A stretch of 64,000 nt of DNA from Halococcoides cellulosivorans. Its GTDB lineage: Archaea; Halobacteriota; Halobacteria; Halobacteriales; Haloarculaceae. The position numbers were made by a program, and so were the translations under genes. Numbering within the stretch: position 1 is the stretch's first letter; the number at the start of each line of letters is the position of its first letter. The DNA lies in contig NZ_CP028858.1 of the NCBI RefSeq assembly GCF_003058365.1, forward strand, positions 1,674,001 through 1,738,000, read 5' to 3'. Below, one piece after another: positions 31,455 through 48,122 of the stretch. A model generated the notes under the pieces. It was not told the DNA's origin, did not search any database, and saw only the letters and a list, made by a program, of their open reading frames with translations.

Positions 31455-33029
31455 TCAGTGGTTTATGTTTTCGTCGGCCGAGACCGCCAGGTCTCGCACC
31501 GACCGGTGAATCTCGTCGATGCTCGCGGTCTGTTGTTCGTTCGCGGCCGCGATCCGGTCGACCTCCTGAGAGATCTGCTGGGACTGTTCGAGGAGTTCGT
31601 CGACCATCGAGGCGACCTCCTCGGTCGAGGCGGCCTGATCGTCGGTGGCCTCTGCGACCTCGCGGATACCCTGTGAGGTCTCGGTGACGGCGTCGACGAT
31701 ATCGTCGAGGTTGGCCATCGCGGCCTCGACCTGTTCGCGACCACGGTCGAGTCGGTCGGTCGTCTCTTCGAGGCTCGCGACGGTCTGGTCGGTGTCGTCG
31801 CGAATCGACTCGACCATCGACTCGATCTGGCTGGCGTGGTCCTGTGACTCGCCAGCGAGCGATTTCACCTCGTCAGCGACGACCGCGAACCCCTCGCCGG
31901 CCTCCCCAGCGCGAGCGGCCTCGATCGAGGCGTTCAGCGCGAGGATGTTGGTCTGTTCAGCGATGTCGTTGATCACGTCGACGACCTCGTCGATCTCTGC
32001 GACGCGGTCGGCCAGACGATTCACGTCCGTGGCGACCTCGGTCGCTGACTCGTCGACTTGCCCCATCACCGCGATGGCGTCCTCGGCGGCGTCACGGCCG
32101 TCCCGGGCGCGCTGCTCGGCCTCACCGCTCAGCGAGTCGACCTCCTCGGCCGTCGAGGCGATCTCCTCGATCGTCGCGGACATGTTCGAGACCTCGCCCG
32201 CCACCTCGGACATCCCCTCGGCCTGGCGATCGGAGAGGTCGCTGATCTCGGTCGCACTGCTCGCGAGGTCGTCGGCGGCGTCGCGGGTCTCCCCGAGTGC
32301 GGTTTCGATCTCGGTCGTTCGGTCCTCCCGACGTTCGAGTTCGGCTTCCAGACGCTCGTTGTAGGTGTGGATGTAGGTGTCCATCGCGACGCCCTGATCG
32401 AGCGTGAGGAGTTTCAACGCGGAGAGCGTGTCTTCCCGGAACTGATCGAGCGCCCGATCGACGCGCTCGTCGACGGCGTCTTCGACCGCTGCGGCGACCG
32501 CGGCGGGGTCGGCGTCGCCGTCGGCCATCGCGTCGTCGACGACCGCAGTGAGGTCGCGATCGGTCGTCTCGCGGGTGTGATCGGCCAGTGCCCGGGTGAT
32601 CCCTTGATAGTAGATGACGTAGGCCCCGAGGTAGAACTTCGGGCCCATGTCGAGCATGTCGTGGAGTTTGCCGATGCGAGCGCGCTGGTCGAAGTACGAT
32701 TGGTCGTAGGTGCCCTCGGTCAGCGCGCGAAGATAGCCCGACTGAGTCTGTTTGAGTTTCTCGACGCCCTTCGAGGAGCGACCCATGACCGCGAGTGATT
32801 CGTCGAACTCCTGGAGGTGATCGTAGAACCGATCTGCCAGGCCGTCAGCGATCGGATCGAGCACGTCCGAGAGGTCCGCGAGTCGGTCGGCGTCCGCATC
32901 TTTGAACTGCGTGAACGCTTTCCGCCACTCGATCTCGGTGTCGTCGATGCCGAGTGCGGCAGTCAGTTCCGGGCCATGCACCGTCGAACGCTCGGTCTCG
33001 GTGATGCGGTCTGGTCGTTCGAGAGTCAT
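31455..33029 (-). CDS. HemAT-like globin-coupled methyl-accepting transducer
   Basis: A 524-aa soluble signal transducer. The N-terminal globin-coupled sensor domain (~20-190) has the proximal heme ligand candidate His123 in [20 protein letters not shown]. The C-terminal half is a chemotaxis signalling domain with HAMP-less coiled coil and the hairpin tip [19 protein letters not shown], which contacts CheA/CheW. No transmembrane segments exist. HemAT proteins sense oxygen and drive aerophobic or aerophilic taxis in haloarchaea. Start taken at MTLERPD, with GGAG 8-11 nt upstream; an alternative ATG is 16 codons upstream. No che genes are adjacent. Confidence 0.9.
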
Positions 33030-33186
33030 GTGGAGTCTCCGACGGCGGTCCGTCGTTTCTGTGTGAACGAGTGCCATCCGGTCCAATAGGCGTTCTGGCC
33101 GACCGGTCGGTCGTCCATCAAATTCGATCCGAGAGAGCGGCCATCGAACCCAAAGACAGAACCCCAGGGCTCGTGAACGCAGATCT

Positions 33187-33690
33187 ATGTTCGCGGAGAT
33201 CATGGCGAAGTTCGCTGACAGCCCCAGTCAGCAGCGGGTGATTCGCCTGCTGCTCGAACGGGGCTTCTCGGTCAACGACGAGGGGCGGGTCGTCTCGGGG
33301 TCGATCGAGATTCCGTTCACCGAGATCGCCCGCGAAGTCGACGTCGACCGGCGGGTCGTCGACGCGACGACCGACGCGATCCTCGACGATCCGGATCTGC
33401 GGCAGATCTTTCAGAACATCTCCCAGATCCCGAGTCTGATGGATCTCGCCCCGATTCTCGAACTGTCGGTCCTCGTCGTCACCGTCGCGGACGCGGACGC
33501 GAAAGGCATCGTCGCGACCGTCACGAACATGGTCGCCGATCACGACCTGACGATCCGGCAGATCGTCAGCGACGACCCCGAGTTCTCCGATCACCCACGC
33601 CTCTATATCGTTACGGACGAGCAACTCCCGGGAGAGATGTTGACAGAACTGAAAACCCTCGATTTCGTCCGCTCGATCGAACTGCGGTGA
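33187..33690 (+). CDS. ACT-domain regulator of amino acid metabolism
   Basis: A 167-aa protein with an N-terminal helical/wHTH-like part ([39 protein letters not shown]) and a C-terminal ACT domain ([20 protein letters not shown]...). ACT domains bind amino acids. Similar archaeal proteins are annotated as regulators of amino acid metabolism; the ligand and targets are unknown. It is divergent from the HemAT-like gene and convergent with phaC (21-nt gap). No operon partner. Confidence 0.8.
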
Positions 33691-33711: not shown

Positions 33712-35226
33712 TCACTCGCCGTTGATCTGGTCGATCCAGGATCCGACCTGACCGACCGAGGCGTTCGCGATCTCCGCGACGGTCTCGCGGTCTTCGGCCA
33801 GGAGGTGGTCGACGGTGTCGATTCCCGCTTCGCGCAGGCGATCCGCGTACGTCGGACCGATGCCATCGACGGTCTCGATGTCGGTGTCGGGCGTGATCTC
33901 CTCGTCCGTCTCGGCGGTCGCCTCCGTGACCTGCTCGATGTCCTCCTCGTCGATCTCCGCGGCCTCCGTCGAGAGGTCGACGTCAGCCGTGAGATCGGCC
34001 GCTGACGCGTCCTCGGTCGCGGTATCGTCGGTCGGCGTCTCGTCAGTCCCGGTCGAGGACTCGTCGGCCGCGACCTCCTCAGCAGCGTCCTCGTCCGCGG
34101 CCTCCTCGTCGTCTTCGTCGATCTGCGAGCGCTCCGCGAACCACTCACAGACCTCCGGCCAGACGTCGGCGTGTGAGGACCGCGAGACCGCCAGGCCGAC
34201 GTGCCCGGTGGAATACTCGATGGTCTCGACGTCCTCGCTCGCGACGAGGTCGTTGAACGGTTTCGACGCACTCGGCGGGACGAGGTGGTCGTATTCGGCG
34301 ACGATCTGGAGCAGCGGCATGTCGATGTTGTCGATGTCGACGTGCTCGCCGCCGATGTACAACTCGTTGTTCGCGAGGTTGTTCTGCTGATAGATCTCTT
34401 CGAGGAACTGCGCGTAGGTCGCGCCAGCGACGTCGACGCCGTCTGCGAGCCACTTCTCCATGCGCGCGAAGTTCTCGACGAAGTTCTCGTTGTCGAGGTT
34501 GTCGAGGAAGTGGATGTACTTCGAGACGTAGTTGTCGACGGGGTCCATCAGCGCGAAGCCCTCGTCGAGGAACTCCTGGGGGACGTTCCCGAACGATTCG
34601 TGAATACGACGCGCGTCGAAAAAGGAATCGTCGCCCCACTTTTCGAGGACGCCACCCGTGTCGTCGAAATAGAGGCCGGCGGCCATCAGGCCGAGTGCGT
34701 TCACTTTCTCGGGGTGCAGGGCCGCATAGATCGTCGACATCGTCCCGCCCATGCAGTACCCGAGGACGTTGATCGCGTCCTGACCGGACTCCTCGCGGAC
34801 GACGTCCGCGCAGTTGTCGATATACCGGTTGACGTAGTCGTCGAGCGTGAGATGCTGGTCGAGCCGAGAGGGATTGTTCCACTCGATGAAATAGACGTCG
34901 TGACCGTTCTCCAGGAGGCGGCGGATGACCGACCGGTTCGGCTGGAGGTCCAGGATATAGGGGCGGTTGATCAGCGCGTACACGACGAGAATCGGGACGT
35001 CGCTTTGGTCCTCGGGATCGACGTCGATGTCGGCGGCCTCGACGTCGTAGTGCAGGAGTTCGAGTTTGTTCTCCTCGTAGACGACGTCGCTGGGAGTCTG
35101 GCCGACGTCGACGTTGTTCATCGTCTCGATGGTCTCGGGGAGCGAATCCGCGACGTCGATGGCCTGGGTCATCGCTTCGACCCCCCGGCGCTGGGCGTCG
35201 ATCGAAGCCGATAGTGGATCATTCAT
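33712..35226 (-). CDS. phaC: Class III PHA synthase subunit PhaC with C-terminal HhH extension
   Basis: A 504-aa polyhydroxyalkanoate synthase that polymerises (R)-3-hydroxyacyl-CoA at the surface of storage granules. The alpha/beta-hydrolase core shows the nucleophile Cys158 in the lipase-like box GYCMGG, with Asp313 (EYDHLVPP) and His342 ([10 protein letters not shown]) completing the triad. Beyond ~365, an acidic linker of ~75 residues leads to a helix-hairpin-helix-like module ([20 protein letters not shown], ~446-465, and following). The start is the ATG at 35226, directly after an in-frame GTG and 4 nt from a GGGTGATC Shine-Dalgarno sequence. It is the last gene of the phaRPEC operon, 11 nt behind phaE. 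Confidence 0.95.
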
Positions 35227-35237
35227 CACGGATCACC

Positions 35238-42931: not shown

Positions 42932-43759
42932 TCAGTCAGTCGTCGAGTCGACCCGATCGCGCCCGCCGTCGATCGCCCCGGCTTTGAGTGCGGCGGCTTT
43001 CTCGCGTACCTCCTGGGCGACCGTGTCGATCGAGCGATCCTCGCTCGCGCCCCGAGCGACGATGTCGACGAGTGCGGAGCCGACGATGATGCCGTCGGCC
43101 CCACCAGCGACGATGTCGCGGGCGTGTTCGCGCGTCTTGATCCCGAACCCGACGGCTTTCGGGACCGGCCAGTCCGCGACGCGCGCGAGTGTCGCGCCGG
43201 TCTGATCCGAGACGTCGTCGCGAGCGCCCGTCACGCCCAGTCGCGCCTGGACGTAGACGTACCCCGAGGTCACTTCGCGCATGGTCGCGAGGCGATCGTC
43301 GGTCGTCGTCGGCGCGACGATGAAGATCAGATCCAGGCCGAACTCGTCACACGCCTCACGCAACGGCCCGGCCTCCTCGGCGGGCAGATCCGGCACGACG
43401 AAGCCCGCGATCCCCGCCTCGGCCGCCCGTTCGACGAACGACCGCGGCCCGTCGCTGTCGCCGTACTGATACAGGAGGTTGTAGTAGGTCATACAGACGA
43501 CCGGCACGTCGATGTCCAACTCCTCGACAAAAGTAAAGTAGCGATCGGGCGTCATCCCCGCCTGAAGCGCGCGCACGATCGCGGACTGGATCGTCGGCCC
43601 TTCCGCGATCGGTTCCGAAAAGGGCAGGCCGAGTTCGATGACGTCCGCGCCGCCCTCGGCGAGCGCCTCGACGTAGGCTTTCGACGATTCGCGGTCGGGA
43701 TCGCCCGCGACGAGATACGGAACGAAGGCTGGCTCGTCGAACACGCCGTCGAGGCTCAT
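42932..43759 (-). CDS. trpA: Tryptophan synthase alpha chain
   Basis: A 275-aa TIM-barrel subunit that splits indole-3-glycerol phosphate to indole. The catalytic Glu is Glu42 ([10 protein letters not shown]). The substrate loop reads [12 protein letters not shown]: the canonical FSDPLADGPTIQ has Asp at both places, and the second Asp takes part in catalysis, so this is a conservative D-to-E change at Glu53. The phosphate-binding [11 protein letters not shown] and [10 protein letters not shown] are intact. Its ATG overlaps the trpB stop (ATGA), so translation is coupled. Third and last gene of trpCBA. Confidence 0.95.
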
Positions 43760-45060
43760 CGCTCGCCCTCCGCGCCCTCGGTCGGGTCGTCGAGCGCCGC
43801 CGCGGCGTCCAGATCACGGTCGCGCGTCTGCTCGATGACCGTTTCGAGGTCCTTGTCACCACGACCCGAGACGTTGACGATCGTCGTCTCACCGAGCGCG
43901 TCGGGATGTGCTTCGAGGTACGCGAACGCGTGGGCGGTCTCCAGCGCGGGGATGATCCCCTCCAGGCGGGAGACGCGATGGAACGCTTCGAGCGCGTCGT
44001 CGTCGTCGACGTTCGCAGCCTGCACCCGCCCGGTGTCGACGAGGTGGGCGAGTTCCGGGCCGACCCCCGAGTAGTCCAGGCCGGCCGAGACGCTGTGGGA
44101 TTCGAGGATCTGGCCGTCCGCGTCCTGCAGGAGTTTCGTGCGCGCGCCGTGGAGGACGCCCTCGTCGCCGGTCGACAGCGTCGCGGAGTTGGGCGCGACG
44201 CCGCGCTCCTCGTCGACCTCCAGCGACGAGCCGCCGGCTTCGACGGCGATCAGGTCCACGTGGTCTCGCGGGCGCTGCCCGCTCGAATCGTCCGCGGAAC
44301 GTGGTTCCGCGCAGTCGTCTCGGAACTCGTGGAACGCGCCCATCGTGTTCGACCCGCCGCCCGCACACGCGACGACCGAGTCGGGCAGCCCCCCAGTCTT
44401 CTCGCGGATCTGTTCGCGGGCCTCCTCGCCGATGATCGACTGGAAGTCCCGGACCATCTCGGGGAACGGGTCCGGCCCGACGATCGATCCGATGACGTAG
44501 TGGGTGTCCTCGACGTTACTCGCCCAGTCGCGCATCGTCTCGGAGATGGCCTCCTTGAGCGTCCCCCGCCCGGTCGTCACGGGCGTGACGGTCGCACCGT
44601 TGAGACGCATCCGCTGGACGTTGGGCCGCTGACGTTCCATGTCGGTCTCGCCCATGTACACCTCACAGGGCATGCCCAGATGGGCGGCCGCCATCGCCGT
44701 CGCAGTGCCGTGCTGGCCTGCCCCGGTCTCGGCGATGATCCGGTCTTTGCCCATGTACTTCGCGAGCAAGACCTGTCCGAGCGCGTTGTTCAGTTTGTGC
44801 GCACCGCCGTGCAGCAGGTCCTCGCGTTTGAGATAGACGTTCGTGTCGTATCGGTCGCTCAGCGCCTCGGCGTACTGCAACGGCGTCGGTCGGCCCCCGA
44901 AGTCCGCGAGTCGATCGCGAAGTTCCGTCGGAAAGTCGTCGGCCCCGTCCAGAACGTATCGTTCGTAGGCCTCACGCAGTTCTTCGATGGCCGGCATGAG
45001 CGCCTCCGGCACGTACTGGCCGCCGTATCGTCCGAATTTGCCGTCGTGTGAGTCTGTCAT
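43756..45060 (-). CDS. trpB: Tryptophan synthase beta chain
   Basis: A 434-aa PLP enzyme that condenses indole and serine to tryptophan. The PLP lysine is Lys89 in [15 protein letters not shown]. The phosphate loop [15 protein letters not shown] and N-terminal [17 protein letters not shown] are typical of the main TrpB1 type that pairs with TrpA. A short acidic insert follows the GGGSN loop (~245-270), and the C-terminus is an acidic tail, both common in halophiles. It lies 10 nt downstream of trpC. Confidence 0.97.
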
Positions 45061-45070
45061 GAATGTATGC

Positions 45071-45871
45071 TCAGTGTGTTCGCTCGGTCTCAGCGTCGGG
45101 ACAGGTTGCCCCGACGAGTCGTTCGGTCGTCGCCTCGATGGGCCCGCTCATGATCGCTGACCCGACGAGCAGGCCGTCTGCCCCCGCCTCGCACATCCGT
45201 GTCACGTCGTCGGGCGTCGCGATCCCGCTCTCTGCGATCGACGTGACGTCCTCGGGAATCGCGGGCGCGACCCGTTCGACGGTGCCCAGATCGACCGTGA
45301 GTTCGGCCAGATCGCGGTTGTTCACACCGACGATCGTGGCTCCGGCGTCGAGTGCCTCGTCGAGTTCCGCCCGGGAATGGGTTTCGACGAGCACCTGAAA
45401 CCCGCGCTCGCGGGCCGCGTCGATCAGGTCGGCCAGGTCGTCGGTGCCCGTTTCGTCCAGAAAGCGCACGATCAGCAGGACGACATCGGCCGCGACGGCG
45501 TCGAGTTGGGCCTCCCTGACGACGAAGTCCTTCCGGAGGACCGGGACGTCGACCGCCGCGCGCACCCGGTCGAGTGTCTCGGGAGACCCCCCGAAGTGCT
45601 CGGGTTCGGTCAGCACCGACAGGGCGGCCGCGCCGCCCGCGACCATCGCCTCCGCCGCGGCGACCGGATCGGTCTCGCGAACGCCGTCGGTCGTCGGACT
45701 CGTCGGCTTCACCTCTGCAATCACGGGGACGCGACCGTCGGCGCGGGCCGCCGCGAACGCGTCCGGAAGCGATCGTGCGTCGGCGGCGATCCGATCGGCC
45801 TCGACGGTCCGCTCGCGTGCGGCGTCGAGGATCGACCGGACGGCCGGATCGATCTCGTCATCAGCCACCAT
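45071..45871 (-). CDS. trpC: Indole-3-glycerol phosphate synthase
   Basis: A 266-aa TIM-barrel enzyme converting CdRP to indole-3-glycerol phosphate. The N-terminal part [16 protein letters not shown] corresponds to the catalytic Lys/Ser-Pro region (KxxSP), [15 protein letters not shown] contains the general acid Lys, and [11 protein letters not shown] and [10 protein letters not shown] are later barrel motifs. It is the first gene of trpCBA; the other trp genes are not in this window. Its promoter is covered by three phased GTACA repeats. Confidence 0.95.
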
Positions 45872-45875
45872 TGTA

Positions 45876-45900
45876 GTACACTAACGTACACTCCTGTACA
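45876..45900 (-). promoter_or_regulatory. TRP-box-like operator: three GTACA boxes at 10-bp spacing
   Basis: GTACA occurs at 45876-45880, 45886-45890 and 45896-45900, exactly 10 bp apart, so all face the same side of the helix. The distal copy is a full TGTACA. The array starts 5 nt upstream of the trpC ATG and reaches a TTTTGTA promoter element ~26-32 nt upstream. TGTACA is the TRP box bound by TrpY in Methanothermobacter. The binding protein in this organism is unknown. Confidence 0.6.
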
Positions 45901-46007
45901 AAAGAGTTGCGGGTCGTTCGCGATTCCGATGCAGGCACACATTCCAAGTCGTCGATTCACGGCAAATATTGACTAATTTTATGCTGATAGCAGTAGAATA
46001 CGATGCT

Positions 46008-48122
46008 ATGGTCGAAGAGCCCGACAACGACGACCGGGTGTTCGATTCGATCGACAGCGGGTTCGATTCGATCGACAGACGGTCCGTACTGTACGCGCTG
46101 GGGGCGACCGGTGGCGCTGGCGTCTTTGGGTCGGGGCTGGCCACGGCGGCGAGTGACGACTCCACGACGACCCCGACACCCGACTTCGAGGTCGTCGAGA
46201 CGTCGCTGGACGTGGGAACTGAGGGCCTCATCGGAAGCCACTACCGCAACGAGGTGTCGATCACCGTCGACGGGACGACGGTCCATCTGGAGGGCCGGAT
46301 CGTCTACGATCGCACCGACGAGCCAACACTCGACGTGACCGTCATCGGCGGAACCCTGCTCGTGACCGTCGGGAGTACCCCCGGCGACGAGGATGAGACG
46401 GTCATCATGACCAGGTATACCGCCGAGATCGAACTCACGGGCGAACCGGAGACGGTCTACGTCGAACACGACCCGGCCGCCCCCGAGGTTTCCTATGCGA
46501 ACAGCTGGCACGCCGATTCGGTGATCGTCTCCGACTCGATCGAGACCGTCGATCGCTCGGAAACGGATCTCGTCGGATCGACCGGCGTGACCGTCGAGGA
46601 CACGCGCGTCCGGATCGACGGCCGACTGCTCGCGACCGCCGCCGACGATCCAACACTCGCCACGGCGTATCACGACGGTGATCTCGCGGTGACGATCGGA
46701 ATCGACGGCGGGATGACCGCCGAGAGCCAGATCGACGAATCGATCCGATACGTCGCGACGATCGATCTCTCCGAGGCCCCCGACTCGGTCGACGTGGCCC
46801 ACGATCGATCGCTCGTCGACCCCAAGCAGTCCCGCGTTCGCGTTCACTGGCCGGGCCCCGGCATCGTCGACCACTCGATCGAACGCACGGGCGTCGACGC
46901 GTCGAATCCGACGGATCGCGCTGCGATCACAGTCTCGGGGACGGACGTCACGATACGGGGCGAGATCGTCAGCGACGGGAAAAACGACCGACCGAAAGCG
47001 ACGGCCCAATTCTCCGATGGAACACTCTCGGTCGACGTCGCGACCGCAGACGGTGTCGCGGTCTCAGACGACCTCGACGGCGACAGAGACGCCTGGGGAA
47101 TCGAGTATCGCCAGGAGATCGCACTCGACTCGATGCCCGAGCAGGTCTACGTCGACCACGCCAACACTGCTGGACTCCGGTCGTGGCGGTCGGCGGGTGT
47201 CGAGGATACGACGATCGAAAAGACCGGCGAGACGATGCCCGGCCCGAACCAGGTCGAAGACGACGCGACGATCACCTGTAACGGTTCGACGGTCGAGATC
47301 ACCGGCCAGATCGTCGCACCGGGTGGCGAGTGCTTCGAACCGTCGATCGAGGCGGCCACGAACGCAGATGGATCGCGCGCGTTCGTCCAGATCGGGACGG
47401 TCGCTCCTGTGGGTGCCGTCTGCGTCGAGAATCCCAGCGAAGTGGAATACGCGGCCAGCGTCGAACTGGCAGAGCCACCACAGACGGTGGCCGTCGTCCA
47501 CGGCGATCGATCGAGCACGGACGGGACGCGAGGCTGGCGATTTCTCGAACGCTGGTGGGTCGATCCGATCGAGACGGTGACGACGACCTGGTTCGATGAG
47601 AGAGGCTGTACGCCCGACACGCCACCCGCGAGCGCGTCGATCACCGTCACCGACGCGACCGTTCGCATCGACGGGACGACGAGTTACGCACGGCAGTATC
47701 CACCACTCGCGGACGTGGCCGTCGACGACGGGCGAGTCGACGTTGGCTTCGCCCCGAAAGAGCCCGGGGCGAAAAATCTCCATACCGACTGTATCTACGC
47801 CGCGGACTACGCCATCGAGATCGAACTCGCGGACGCACTCTCGACCCTCAAACTCGCGTATTCGAGCCCCAACGGATCCGTCGAGAAACGGTGGCCCTCG
47901 ACCGACCTCGATCCGGTCGACGGAACGGTGCCGGGCGATATCGACGGCGACGGCCTCCACGAAGATTTCTCGGGCGACGGCGAACTGAACTTCCCGGACG
48001 TGAACGCGTTCTTCCAGCACACCGAGACTGCGGCGGTCCAGGACCACCCCGACGCCTACGATTTCACCGGTGACGGCACGGTCGACTCACAGGACGTCCT
48101 CGCGCTGTTCGAGATGGTCTGA
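46008..48122 (+). CDS. Tat-exported multi-repeat protein with C-terminal dockerin domain
   Basis: A 704-aa secreted protein. The Tat signal is DRRSVLYALGATGGAGVFGS with cleavage near ATAAS. Then come about five divergent repeats of ~115 residues, each with a core like 'VSITVDGTTVHLEGRIVYD...PTLDVTVIGGTLLVTV...YTAEIELTGEPETVYVEHD' (described here in parts), pointing to a string of beta sandwiches. The C-terminal ~60 residues are a dockerin: DIDGDGLHEDFSGDG, FPDVNAFFQHTET, and DFTGDGTVDSQDVLALF. It is a longer paralogue of the 14702-16183 protein; the repeat unit is unknown to me. An AATTTTAT box lies 26-33 nt upstream of the chosen ATG; an in-frame ATG also exists nine codons earlier. Confidence 0.8.
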   Translation: MVEEPDNDDRVFDSIDSGFDSIDRRSVLYALGATGGAGVFGSGLATAASDDSTTTPTPDFEVVETSLDVGTEGLIGSHYRNEVSITVDGTTVHLEGRIVYDRTDEPTLDVTVIGGTLLVTVGSTPGDEDETVIMTRYTAEIELTGEPETVYVEHDPAAPEVSYANSWHADSVIVSDSIETVDRSETDLVGSTGVTVEDTRVRIDGRLLATAADDPTLATAYHDGDLAVTIGIDGGMTAESQIDESIRYVATIDLSEAPDSVDVAHDRSLVDPKQSRVRVHWPGPGIVDHSIERTGVDASNPTDRAAITVSGTDVTIRGEIVSDGKNDRPKATAQFSDGTLSVDVATADGVAVSDDLDGDRDAWGIEYRQEIALDSMPEQVYVDHANTAGLRSWRSAGVEDTTIEKTGETMPGPNQVEDDATITCNGSTVEITGQIVAPGGECFEPSIEAATNADGSRAFVQIGTVAPVGAVCVENPSEVEYAASVELAEPPQTVAVVHGDRSSTDGTRGWRFLERWWVDPIETVTTTWFDERGCTPDTPPASASITVTDATVRIDGTTSYARQYPPLADVAVDDGRVDVGFAPKEPGAKNLHTDCIYAADYAIEIELADALSTLKLAYSSPNGSVEKRWPSTDLDPVDGTVPGDIDGDGLHEDFSGDGELNFPDVNAFFQHTETAAVQDHPDAYDFTGDGTVDSQDVLALFEMV

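Follow-up and report, generated by a model that had tools for sequence, protein, structure and literature searches.

The DNA analyzed here, referred to as the window, is a 64,000-nucleotide stretch of Halococcoides cellulosivorans (genome C1:1674001-1738000). It carries on its reverse strand the tryptophan operon trpCBA, with an array of short repeats in the promoter, and on its forward strand a gene for a TrpY-family protein. The features considered, in window positions, are:

33187 to 33690, forward strand: trpY candidate, 167 amino acids, with a putative N-terminal HTH and a C-terminal ACT domain (NCBIfam NF053754).
42932 to 43759, reverse strand: trpA, tryptophan synthase alpha, trpCBA operon; as a tblastn query it recovers trpA in other trp operons.
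43756 to 45060, reverse strand: trpB, tryptophan synthase beta, trpCBA operon; as a tblastn query it recovers trpB in other trp operons.
45071 to 45871, reverse strand: trpC, indole-3-glycerol phosphate synthase, leading gene of trpCBA (PF00218, 7.5e-70).
45876 to 45900, reverse strand: TRP-box-like array, three TGTAC boxes with a 10-bp period; position and spacing are kept in 65 aligned trpC promoters.
45876 to 45880, reverse strand: array box 3, TGTAC, from sequence reading.
45886 to 45890, reverse strand: array box 2, TGTAC, from sequence reading.
45896 to 45900, reverse strand: array box 1, TGTAC, from sequence reading.
45900 to 45903, reverse strand: TATA-like TTTT (TTAT in most relatives), sharing one base with box 1.
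45906 to 45911, reverse strand: BRE-like CGCAAC (CGCAAG in most relatives), 72-99% conserved per position.

Read on the forward strand, positions 45876-45900 are GTACACTAACGTACACTCCTGTACA. Copies of GTACA start at 45876, 45886 and 45896, the third lying within TGTACA at 45895-45900, and the window letters thereby confirm the three boxes at exact 10-bp spacing, one of them TGTACA, that had been described in an earlier note on this DNA. On the trpC strand the region reads CTCTTTTGTACAGGAGTGTACGTTAGTGTACTACA-ATG, with TGTAC boxes beginning at -29, -19 and -9 (the A of the ATG being 45871), and the pattern TGTAC-N5-TGTAC-N5-TGTAC begins at the TATA box and stops 4 bp short of the trpC ATG. Since box 1 overlaps the TATA-like TTTT, the array occupies the whole stretch from TATA box to start codon, in agreement with the same note, which had placed it over the promoter and start region. 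Spaced at one helical turn, the boxes present the same face of the DNA. Chance alone would give 0.01 matches per 64 kb to this pattern at two or fewer mismatches, and the only other such match in the 2.72-Mb genome is an imperfect site at 2,587,378; the three-box pattern is essentially unique within the genome. The haloarchaeal TATA consensus is TTWT, with CGAAA proposed as the BRE (PMC4983044), and the TATA box is positioned at about -26 (PMC10817205). With TTAT or TTTT at -32 to -29 from the ATG, the trpC transcript would be expected to start at or beside the ATG, so that box 1 would lie on the TATA box and boxes 2 and 3 over the initiation region. The transcript is probably leaderless, as box 3 ends so close to the start codon. 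Divergent from trpC lies a gene (45969-48122, forward strand) for a large secreted protein with a Tat-like signal, repeated domains and a C-terminus resembling a dockerin (DGDG, DFTGDG); the TATA-like stretch of this gene is more than 70 bp away from the array.

Of 79 genomes from the same family and order, 77 have a TrpC match, and 65 trpC upstream regions align on the ATG with zero indels, giving the consensus CGCAAGCCTTATGTACAAATCTGTCCGTTAGTGTACAATA-ATG. Each box keeps its G (at -28, -18 and -8) and its C (at -25, -15 and -5) in 96-99% of these promoters; the middle box is mostly nGTCC in the relatives and a perfect TGTAC in H. cellulosivorans. Mean pairwise identity among the 65 genomes is 71% at -41 to -1 of trpC versus 30% at -70 to -42, and 28% in the matching stretch before trpY. 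The column similarity of the alignment peaks at a lag of 10 (permutation p 0.006). A sequence-only promoter model of 44 columns (41 bp plus the ATG) was searched against 245 Halobacteriales genomes at least 90% complete, some of which had supplied training sequences while most had not, and it matched 244 of them. The array is conserved upstream of trpC in relatives, one of the points on which the earlier note had said that its proposal could fail. The best 30 model matches all end exactly at the trpC start. The single genome that lacks a match keeps box 3 and has degenerate boxes 1 and 2. The element is absent before trpC itself in a few distant Halobacteriales (G054, G056 and G069, the last outside the model search set); two of these genomes, G054 and G056, nevertheless have a model match at another place, which suggests that the operator may precede another leading trp gene there.

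The array also occurs before a second trp operon. In H. cellulosivorans the trpD operon bears TGTACTTACTTGTAC; the first base of TGTACTTACTTGTACAC lies 27 bp upstream of the trpD start, and trpE follows 1.7 kb further. A related array was present at trpD in all 30 relatives read, so that the search before other trp genes proposed in the earlier note was productive. There a TATA box of CTTAAG type precedes a TGTAC-N5-TGTAC-like pair, and a third box, GTNCA, usually stands 20 bp beyond the pair; relative to the ATG the array is placed differently than at trpC. In Halobacterium salinarum the two corresponding operons, trpCBA and trpD1FE1G1, are both induced without aromatic amino acids (PMC4162585). 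A two-box search of the genome at one or fewer mismatches gave 41 matches, versus 19 in a reversed control; none of the 41 beyond those at trpC and trpD marks a convincing promoter, and no wider regulon is therefore claimed.

A genome-wide scan for ACT domains led to the trpY candidate, which is located 12 kb from the array. It scores 230.2 bits against the TrpY family model NF053754 (cut-off 180) over residues 2-164 of 167. All 56 complete relatives have TrpY, nearly always as one copy, and it exceeds the cut-off in 287 of 296 Halobacteriota. The TrpY-like or ACT-domain regulator that the earlier note had wished to see sought thus has a candidate inside the window, near-universal in relatives. 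The C-terminal half shows the order beta-alpha-beta-beta-alpha-beta, and its Foldseek matches are the ACT domains of IlvN, Rel and aspartate kinase; the Pfam ACT match is weak (E 0.013). The AlphaFold model, built from the single sequence, has a pLDDT of 58, lowest at residues 47-83, and is usable for the ACT half alone. The N-terminus has a helix pattern and a conserved VDRR segment, in a low-confidence part of the model and with no Pfam HTH match. This helix region with VDRR is common to haloarchaea and Methanobacteriaceae (LARAINVDRRSIKSTVEVIL in the methanobacterial locus L305), the overall identity between the two groups of TrpY being about 29-36%.

In the genome, trpY (at 1707187) and trpE (at 1922207) are about 215 kb apart, and no phased boxes were found upstream of trpY in H. 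cellulosivorans or in 29 relatives; in haloarchaea trpY stands apart from the trp genes and shows no visible autoregulation. The neighbors of trpY in H. cellulosivorans are a globin-coupled transducer-like ORF (31455-33203, reverse strand) and a PHA synthase-like ORF (33712-35229, reverse strand). In many relatives the gene immediately before trpY has a product ending in ...STKGEL and looks hisB-like by eye, so that trpY seems to sit by his genes. Another ACT protein, L120, encoded beside a homoserine dehydrogenase-like gene, has no TrpY match and was rejected as the regulator. One member of the Halobacteriota, G267, 99% complete, is without TrpY and without TrpE, possibly a joint loss of the tryptophan pathway and its regulator. 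No paper on the function of haloarchaeal TrpY was found in the open-access literature, and the haloarchaeal members of the family have been listed as unexamined (PMC6737238).

Outside the haloarchaea, phased TGTAC boxes precede trp operons in many Halobacteriota methanogens, with three-box arrays upstream of the first trp gene at six loci (L362, L363, L364, L368, L372 and L376). In TrpY-positive genomes, 14 of 21 trp operons have an array at p≤0.04 versus dinucleotide shuffles, and L376 is a fifteenth, its array located beyond the 350 bp tested. Four of six TrpY-negative loci of sufficient length for the test are without an array, including both f26 genomes and trpD of the haloarchaeon G060 (f15); the other TrpY-negative loci that score for one, L384 (p 0.03) and L386 (p<0.01), are both in draft assemblies. 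As TrpY is found almost everywhere, its co-occurrence with the array is a weak test of their pairing. At L362-L364 and L368, where the operon begins with trpD, up to four phased boxes occur, some of them TGTAT or TATAC, so that box degeneracy varies by lineage. In the Methanobacteriaceae, five loci have trpY and trpE in divergent orientation and, between the two genes, a pair of TGTAC-type boxes at 10-bp spacing, with one mismatch (p 0.01-0.02). Methanobrevibacter-type trpY promoters (L307, L311, L313, L316) have TGTAC, TGTAT or TATAC boxes at about 0, 12 and 20 bp, a spacing unlike the strict 10-bp pattern, and no trpE within the locus.

In Methanothermobacter thermautotrophicus the TRP box consensus is reportedly TGTACA, and trp repression is said to work by exclusion of TBP from the TATA box. 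The haloarchaeal system resembles the TrpY/TRP-box control of trpEGCFBAD in that organism in its TrpY-family regulator, putative in haloarchaea, and in TGTACA-type boxes that lie on a trp promoter and its TATA box (box 1 at trpC); the 10-bp box pair is shared with related Methanobacteriaceae. It differs in that the trp genes are split over two operons, that trpY is neither adjacent to nor divergent from trpE, that the trpY promoter is free of TRP boxes, and that trpC has three boxes with a strict 10-bp period at a fixed distance to the ATG. Bacterial TrpR is also a tryptophan-dependent repressor of trp operons, as the haloarchaeal protein would be. TrpR belongs to a different protein family and uses a different operator; the haloarchaeal protein has an ACT domain and a putative HTH, and its presumed operator is made of repeated hexamers. 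TrpY of M. thermautotrophicus, a member of the Methanobacteriaceae, binds TRP boxes in the trpY-trpE region and represses trp (PMC6737238, citing the original work). Tar (TK0271) of Thermococcus kodakarensis is likewise an archaeal regulator of aromatic amino acid operons, although it is an activator encoded in the aro operon, and the TrpY homologue of T. kodakarensis neither binds nor regulates trp (PMC6737238). Membership of the TrpY family is therefore no proof of function by itself. The earlier idea of a haloarchaeal system matching TrpY is supported by the conserved array and the TrpY-family candidate, whereas calling it a new regulatory circuit overstated the case: haloarchaea seem to have their own version of the known TrpY/TRP-box circuit, up to now demonstrated only in a methanogen, with the genes arranged differently.

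The array is probably, judged from sequence, the operator of a TrpY-family tryptophan repressor that acts cooperatively and blocks the promoters of both trp operons when tryptophan is present. We infer TrpY as the array-binding protein, its cooperativity, tryptophan as the co-repressor, and repression by a block of TBP or RNA polymerase. Haloarchaeal TrpY (33187-33690) would bind the three TGTAC boxes along one face of the DNA, probably cooperatively, with tryptophan occupying the ACT domain. The tryptophan-loaded protein would, through box 1, lie over the TATA box of trpC and, through boxes 2 and 3, over its initiation region, and likewise over the equivalent region of the trpD-led operon. 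TBP/TFB and polymerase would be blocked, and tryptophan synthesis would be off when tryptophan is plentiful. A wider proposal, to which we give slightly less than even chances, is that TrpY and the 10-bp-phased TGTAC operator are a pair predating the split of Halobacteriota and Methanobacteriota, and that haloarchaeal TrpY covers the promoter cooperatively and in helical phase, forming a short filament in place of isolated dimers.

The array could be a true operator that is read by another amino-acid regulator, for instance the Lrp/AsnC protein LrpA2, with TrpY having some other role. This is unlikely, though LrpA2 (OE2776F) stays in consideration because its induction in H. salinarum reaches 14.9-fold when aromatic amino acids are missing (PMC4162585); the failure of the T. 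kodakarensis TrpY to regulate trp (PMC6737238) and the position of haloarchaeal trpY away from trp, often after the hisB-like gene, point the same way. Against it, the box, its spacing and the target genes match those of the Methanobacteriaceae in which trpY is divergent from trpE, the groups that lack TrpY (f26, and trpD of G060 in f15) lack arrays, and the putative recognition helix of TrpY is conserved. H. salinarum has seven Lrp-like regulators (PMC4162585), versus the single TrpY in nearly all haloarchaeal genomes.

Very improbable is a reading of the array by a TrmB-family regulator, which would tie glucose status to tryptophan synthesis. Two trp operons of Haloarcula hispanica do depend on TrmB, but no TrmB site or motif was found near them and an additional factor was called for; TrmB acts in that organism chiefly by activation, from sites that mostly lie upstream of the promoter and not over the TATA box and start (PMC10817205). 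The operator and TrpY described here are candidates for that factor. The least probable explanation is that the pattern is nothing more than the basal promoter of a leaderless gene plus its translation start, the TGTAC repeats being due to chance or shared ancestry. The trpC element does contain parts resembling a BRE and a TATA box, and it adjoins the ATG. The haloarchaeal basal elements TTWT, CGAAA and WW, however, contain no TGTAC (PMC4983044), the three-box pattern has its one proper occurrence in the genome at trpC, and the boxes recur at trpD, with another placement relative to the ATG, and in distant methanogens.

Haloarchaeal trp operons respond to aromatic amino acids (PMC4162585) and to TrmB status (PMC10817205), and neither of these two studies names a direct trp regulator in haloarchaea. 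An operator and a single-copy candidate regulator are now given for this control and, since this group includes the genetically well-accessible Haloferax, a few experiments would suffice to test the circuit. Regulation by TrpY, if true, would give a function to a near-universal family of regulators and would represent an archaeal operator kept across a very deep divergence.
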